From contig CAIYYX010000099.1 of NCBI GenBank assembly GCA_903930535.1, positions 1 through 64,000 of the forward strand: DNA of 64,000 bases, written 5' to 3'. Of this stretch, positions 23,337 through 24,432 are shown piece by piece. The notes under the pieces were generated by a model. It saw nothing but the letters and a program-made list of their open reading frames with translations, was not told the origin of the DNA and did no database searches. The stretch comes from an uncultured Sterolibacterium sp. (GTDB taxonomy: Bacteria > Pseudomonadota > Gammaproteobacteria > Burkholderiales > Rhodocyclaceae). The translations under genes were made by a program, and so were the position numbers. Each line of letters starts with the position of its first letter. Within the stretch, counting starts at the first letter, position 1.

Positions 23337-23547
23337 GAGGCCTTTCCAGCTAAGCCGGGTCGAGGATTGGTTCAGCAGCCTGCAGCTTACTCTGATTCTC
23401 TCGGCGGCCAGCCTCCATATCGCCGCCTCTTAGGCATACGCGCCGGGGCGACCGAGAGGCAAAAACTGGCGGCAATTATTGCCTCTATCCCACCTAGGCC
23501 CCATACCGAGGCTCTCTACTGCACTGTTTTGTCGTGATTAATTATTG

Positions 23548-23563
23548 TGGCACCGAGTTTGCT
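23548..23563 (+). promoter_or_regulatory. Sigma-54 (-24/-12) promoter
   Basis: TGGCACCGAGTTTGCT matches the sigma-54 consensus TGGCAC-N5-TTGCW exactly, with GG and GC ten bases apart. It lies about 48 bp upstream of the ATG of the 62-residue gene and in the right orientation. It would need an activator of the NtrC type, not encoded nearby. Confidence 0.7.
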
Positions 23564-23610
23564 AGGGAGTTGGTACCAGAGCGAATCATAACCCCCGTAA
23601 GGAGACCATC

Positions 23611-23799
23611 ATGTTCCGTACCCAAGACCTTTATAAAGCCGACTTTATCAGCGCACATTCGCAACCGGCGCATTACTTCTGCGACAACATCGAGGTGAAT
23701 CTCAATGGCGGCATGCTCCTGCTTGAAGAACAGACGGCGCTGAGAGATAGCGAATACCTGGATTTCATTGCTTCACTTGAACTCGAGAATCTCAACTAG
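23611..23799 (+). CDS. Orphan small acidic protein behind a sigma-54 promoter
   Basis: A 62-residue, acidic (about 11 Asp/Glu against 3 Lys/Arg), soluble protein; I do not recognise a family. It starts MFRTQDLYKADFISAHSQ, holds one Cys (HYFCDN), a GGMLLLEEQ stretch, and ends LDFIASLELENLN, probably a helix. Evidence that it is real: an AAGGAGA Shine-Dalgarno seven bases before ATG and a near-perfect sigma-54 promoter upstream. No co-transcribed gene follows; the next rightward gene is a dodecin 390 bp away. The promoter suggests control by nitrogen supply or another NtrC-type signal. A regulatory or adaptor peptide is a guess. Confidence 0.65.
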   Translation: MFRTQDLYKADFISAHSQPAHYFCDNIEVNLNGGMLLLEEQTALRDSEYLDFIASLELENLN

Positions 23800-24189: not shown

Positions 24190-24432
24190 ATGACAGACAG
24201 CATATACAAAATCATCGAGGTGGTCGGCACCAGCGGCTCCTCATGGGAGCAGGCTGCCAAGAACGCCGTGGCCGCTGCCGGCATGAGCGTGCGTGATTTG
24301 CGTGTCGCCGAGATCACCAAGCTAGACATGACCCTAGGCGACACCGGCGCTGTTACTTTCAGGGCACGCGTGAGCCTTTCCTTCCGCTACGAGACACCGG
24401 CGAAGCCCAAAGCCAAGGCCAAGTCCAAGTAG
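24190..24432 (+). CDS. Dodecin family flavin-binding protein
   Basis: Small flavoprotein that assembles into a hollow dodecamer and stores or buffers riboflavin/FMN in the cytosol. Residues 3-68 match the family closely: IYKIIEVVGTSGSSWEQAA, AVAAAGMSVRDLRVAEI (with the Trp that stacks on flavin in SSWEQA), and VTFRARVSLSFRYE. It is 80 residues, longer than the usual 65-71, because of a Lys-rich tail KPKAKAKSK. The ATG chosen follows GGAGG with good spacing; an earlier ATG 16 codons upstream lacks one. It is a single gene followed by a perfect 11-bp inverted repeat. Confidence 0.88.
   Translation: MTDSIYKIIEVVGTSGSSWEQAAKNAVAAAGMSVRDLRVAEITKLDMTLGDTGAVTFRARVSLSFRYETPAKPKAKAKSK

Follow-up and report, generated by a model that had tools for sequence, protein, structure and literature searches.

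The FlrBC/FleSR class III (middle) genes of Vibrio cholerae and Pseudomonas aeruginosa combine a -24/-12 promoter with an enhancer for a flagellar regulator of the NtrC family (PMC7064773, PMC3930126), and FlrBC and FleSR work with sigma-54 on the rod and hook genes (PMC7064773). The ftr elements of Caulobacter, which are bound by FlbD (PMC3930126, PMC3096577), are likewise motifs of a flagellar sigma-54 activator with an FlrC/FleR-like binder, a likeness that we draw by description and not by motif sequence. FlbD is under the control of FliX, whereas the flagellar activator of the genome studied here adjoins a sensor kinase. A further parallel, again by description only, is with the small or accessory proteins that regulate flagellar activators, such as FliX and FlrD, which are likewise tied to a flagellar sigma-54 programme.

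The window analyzed here, a stretch of 64,000 nucleotides of DNA from an uncultured Sterolibacterium sp. (Rhodocyclaceae), contains a 62-codon gene that resembles the FlrBC/FleSR class III genes in having a -24/-12 promoter and an enhancer, the latter common to flgB, flgK, flgE and flgH in Rhodocyclaceae. Unlike those genes, however, it is unlinked to flagellar clusters, codes for no known flagellar part and occurs in only some Rhodocyclaceae; and unlike FliX and FlrD, its product belongs to a protein family with no Pfam or NCBIfam match.

Results

The gene, its promoter and its ribosome-binding site lie exactly where the preliminary description of this DNA had placed them (Table 1). The promoter has the form TGGCAC-N5-TTGCT, with the -24 GG and the -12 GC at the spacing proper to such elements, and is the one exact match to TGGCAC-N5-TTGCW in the 64 kb window; across the genome (4.03 Mb) that pattern occurs eight times, as against three for the reversed control pattern. 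Of the other seven matches, four immediately precede fliK, fliE, flagellin and a TPR gene that diverges from flagellin; three fall within unrelated genes. With score weights set after the published consensus, so that only relative values count, none of 5000 Markov shuffles reached the sigma-54 score of the 62-aa gene at 45-110 nt before the ATG, and of 344 control ORFs with a length of 150 aa or more, one had a score of 10.8 or higher at 51-110 nt upstream. RpoN is encoded in the genome (Sigma54_DBD match at C87, E 2.1e-64). No flagellar gene lies close to the 62-aa gene, and no activator gene adjoins it, as had been said of it before. A dodecin gene (24190-24432) lies about 390 bp 3' of it, with no sign of an operon between the two.

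Table 1. Features at the 62-codon gene (positions in the window)
Feature	Position	Strand	Basis or remark
Enhancer (upstream activating site) CGGCAATTATTGCCT	23470-23484	+	proposed FlrC/FleR-type activator site
Sigma-54 -24/-12 promoter TGGCACCGAGTTTGCT	23548-23563	+	sequence; conserved in 20/22 family members
Predicted transcription start	23573-23574	+	inferred from promoter geometry, about 12 nt past the -12 GC
Ribosome-binding site AAGGAGA	23599-23605	+	sequence; ATG 5 nt further on
62-codon ORF, ATG to TAG	23611-23799	+	62-aa acidic protein, net charge about -8

A single-sequence search with the window protein retrieved only the C246 paralogue of this genome (G000), at about 35-36% identity, and a single-sequence scan of a named genome collection yielded no homologue; profiles were needed. 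A profile of two sequences added G000:C262 and G020, and one of four sequences, run against 399 genomes of the same family, added 14 further confident members (E 8e-10 to 6e-18). Three paralogues, the window gene included, are present in this genome, and the named carriers of homologues are Sulfuritalea, Sterolibacterium, and Rhodocyclales and Rhodocyclaceae MAGs. No confident member was found outside the Rhodocyclaceae among 399 sampled genomes of the same order, nor any member in virus contigs and plasmids, and searches of Pfam, NCBIfam and PHROGs with the family proteins gave nothing credible. We dismissed the weak sequence matches in the PDB, 3ggy (E 0.01) among them, as fortuitous. By sequence, then, this is an undescribed small-protein family, limited to the Rhodocyclaceae as far as sampled.

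About 44 N-terminal residues are common to the members (MFHVLDHxDVVYSGDLSQxTQYVxEHYGKxLDEAIRSGIxIxY; the family consensus begins MFHVLDHADVVYSGDLSQxTQYVIEHYGK), followed by variable tails, some of which end in WxPxEDWxxD. The 62-aa short form comprises the window, C246, G020 and G128 proteins. The window protein is a divergent short member of the family, judged by alignment: it is 13-35% identical to the family consensus and lacks the GIxI strand segment, and keeps M1, F2, D6, S17 and Q18. The AlphaFold model of a long-form homologue shows a strand-strand-helix-helix-strand order, with block means of pLDDT 82-89 over the N-terminal 40 residues, and its comparison with the PDB by Foldseek gave no fold match (best E 4.4); the model of the window protein itself (pLDDT 58) is not good enough to be used. 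Seventeen homologues compared over their first 44 codons have a mean pN of 0.14 and a mean pS of 0.57, so that this part of the protein is under purifying selection. Between homologues L118 and L122, 44% of the synonymous sites differ and no nonsynonymous site does; the window and C246 proteins are divergent, with a dN/dS of about 0.5. In one homologue (L083:1501-1836, also L121) the first 49 residues run on in the same frame into the C-terminus of a short-chain dehydrogenase (SDR; PF13561, 8.5e-7), near a contig end, which may reflect recombination or an assembly artefact.

The comparison of neighbourhoods revealed no conserved neighbours beyond one close group of four, except for a cluster of signalling-type (PAS-containing) proteins that recurs in seven genomes at varying positions. 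Behind the C246 paralogue come another 62-aa ORF of no known family (MFRILFLALGGEEQEI..., L003:1261-1446, minus strand) and then, in the same orientation, an Hsp20 gene; the three may share one transcript. Besides this genome, 14 of 15 carriers have flgB; since flgB is present in 349 of the 399 family genomes overall, co-occurrence of the gene with flagella is uninformative. Four congeneric genomes have no detectable homologue; three of these have flgB, so flagella in general do not require the protein.

Of the 22 family members, 20 have a -24/-12 element with a score of 10.8 or more, located 57-82 nt upstream of the ATG. The C246 paralogue, with its own promoter TGGCATTGAGATTGCT, is one of them; the two exceptions are G128, whose promoter is degraded, and G048, whose promoter is lost. 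Ribosome sites of the GGAGGCGATC type precede nearly all homologues. Upstream of the window promoter, and not mentioned in the preliminary description, lies CGGCAATTATTGCC (23470-23483), 77 bp before the -24 box, with the palindrome core GGCAATTATTGCC at 23471-23483. Its counterpart at C246, GGCAATTCCTGCC, has precisely this spacing of 77 bp to the -24 box, so that the two genes share one architecture. With a matrix built from 18 flgB upstream sites, all from other Rhodocyclaceae genomes, the window enhancer ranks first in the 64 kb, at 21.4 bits versus 13.9 for the next independent site. An enhancer match at nominal p <=0.03 is present in 18 of the 22 members and none is seen in the other four; among long-form members the match is as a rule of the CTGCAGTTTTTGCCG type, which is weaker, and usually lies 100-120 bp upstream.

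The combination of palindrome and -24/-12 element was found 20 times in 18 of 300 related genomes, and the reversed pattern 4 times. Leaving aside the two in this genome, most of these matches precede flagellar genes, namely flgB (6), flagellin (2), flgE, flgK, flgH and a FliD_C protein, and a few of the 20 precede genes without assignment. Sites of the CGGCAAnnnTTGCC type stand before flgB in nearly all genomes with a readable flgB start, this one included, and here the site accompanies flgB, flhB, flgK and the TPR gene. In front of the latter (L179:9972-11678; C68:14971-16677), which diverges from flagellin, both the -24/-12 element and GCGGCAATTATTGCCGC are perfect; its end is weakly glycosyltransferase-9-like and it perhaps codes for a flagellin-modifying enzyme. 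At flgK (C44:27731-27790) the enhancer sits downstream of the promoter: the palindrome falls about 40 bp past the first base of the -24 box and ahead of the ATG. In G020 a promoter region very similar to that of the window gene (GGCAATTTCTGCCTCTATTCC ... TGGCATCGAGTTTGCT) precedes the gene for a FliD_C-type protein (L051:1600-2541; G020:C52), and in G173 the same enhancer and a -24/-12 element precede a 151-aa ORF (L050:1034-1486), which is globin-like by eye and has no Pfam match.

Five full sigma-54 activators, including the flagellar one, are encoded in this genome. The C44 activator, whose gene immediately precedes fliE, combines REC, AAA and HTH_8 domains and is accompanied by a sensor kinase, as in FlrBC and FleSR. 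The promoter, the enhancer, the family and the conservation of both promoter and protein are established at the level of sequence.

Discussion

The 62-aa gene probably belongs to the flagellar RpoN-FlrC/FleR regulon as an unlinked target with an accessory product. The FlrC/FleR-type activator whose gene adjoins fliE, a member of the NtrC family, would bind CGGCAATTATTGCC and, once bound, remodel the sigma-54 polymerase at TGGCACCGAGTTTGCT, the gene forming a stand-alone RpoN-dependent transcription unit; if this activator drives TGGCACCGAGTTTGCT, the gene would be co-expressed with the genes for rod, hook and hook-associated proteins. We infer the identity of the binding protein as FlrC/FleR, the ensuing transcription and the task of the protein, which is most likely a small accessory factor in the cytoplasm that serves flagellar assembly or motility.

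The same promoter could be read by another activator (NtrC, a HoxA/HupR-like or AcoR-like protein, or a fifth), in which case the gene would belong to a metabolic or nitrogen response. The genome does hold four full activators besides the flagellar one, and the enhancer of the long-form members, with its more distant position, is only partly like the flagellar palindrome. Yet the region upstream of the 62-aa gene departs from the flagellar consensus CGGCAANNNTTGCCG at one position, versus four in its best match to the NtrC box TGCACY-N5-RGTGCA, and the same palindrome stands before flagellar genes family-wide, which leaves another activator unlikely. Nitrogen control, to which the preliminary description had pointed by naming nitrogen limitation as a check, is not supported because there is no NtrC box upstream: the site is an enhancer of the flagellar type, and nothing NtrC-like with fewer than four mismatches is present. 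Its suggestion that the protein regulates or adapts a sigma-54 response likewise finds no support, the gene having the appearance of a flagellar sigma-54 target and not of a controller. What holds of that account is that the gene is a real and conserved sigma-54 gene and belongs to a new family: the promoter before an orphan small gene is well supported, the homologues that it called for exist and keep the -24/-12 element in 20 of 22 cases, and 'no recognised family' agrees with the lack of any match among Pfam, NCBIfam and PHROG models.

It is also conceivable, though quite improbable, that the gene is a remnant or a fast-evolving by-product, once functional and now drifting near a promoter that is still active. 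The low identity of the window protein to the consensus, its missing GIxI segment and its poor model would fit such decay, as would the lost promoter of G048 and the homologue with the SDR tail. Against this, the reading frame is intact and the ribosome site good, the enhancer, the promoter and their spacing are conserved with C246, and the five residues M1, F2, D6, S17 and Q18 are kept. That the conserved unit is instead a sigma-54-driven small RNA or regulatory leader, with the ORF incidental to it, we regard as very improbable; a short transcript is indeed expected, the position is orphan and the 3' half of the ORF is variable, but selection in the first 44 codons acts at the level of the protein, L118 and L122 being an example, and a conserved ribosome site precedes the ATG.

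A flagellar target of the RpoN-FlrC/FleR regulon is therefore the reading that we prefer for the 62-aa gene. Whether the Rhodocyclaceae family as a whole, with its scattered units of sigma-54 promoter and flagellar enhancer and its copy number of at most three, amounts to a branch of the flagellar assembly programme with an accessory or feedback role is a more tentative matter; it may do so, and we hold this to be possible rather than probable.

Genes under flagellar control that are unlinked to flagellar clusters are easily missed, because annotation looks only within those clusters. The gene described here would bring a small-protein family not described before into the sigma-54 flagellar regulon, and CGGCAAnnnTTGCC is offered as a family-wide enhancer motif for the flagellar activator of the Rhodocyclaceae; both the new family and the motif yield concrete, testable predictions. 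The 62-aa gene and almost all of its relatives carry what appears to be the same on-switch as the flagellar rod and hook genes, which suggests that they code for an overlooked flagellar accessory protein.
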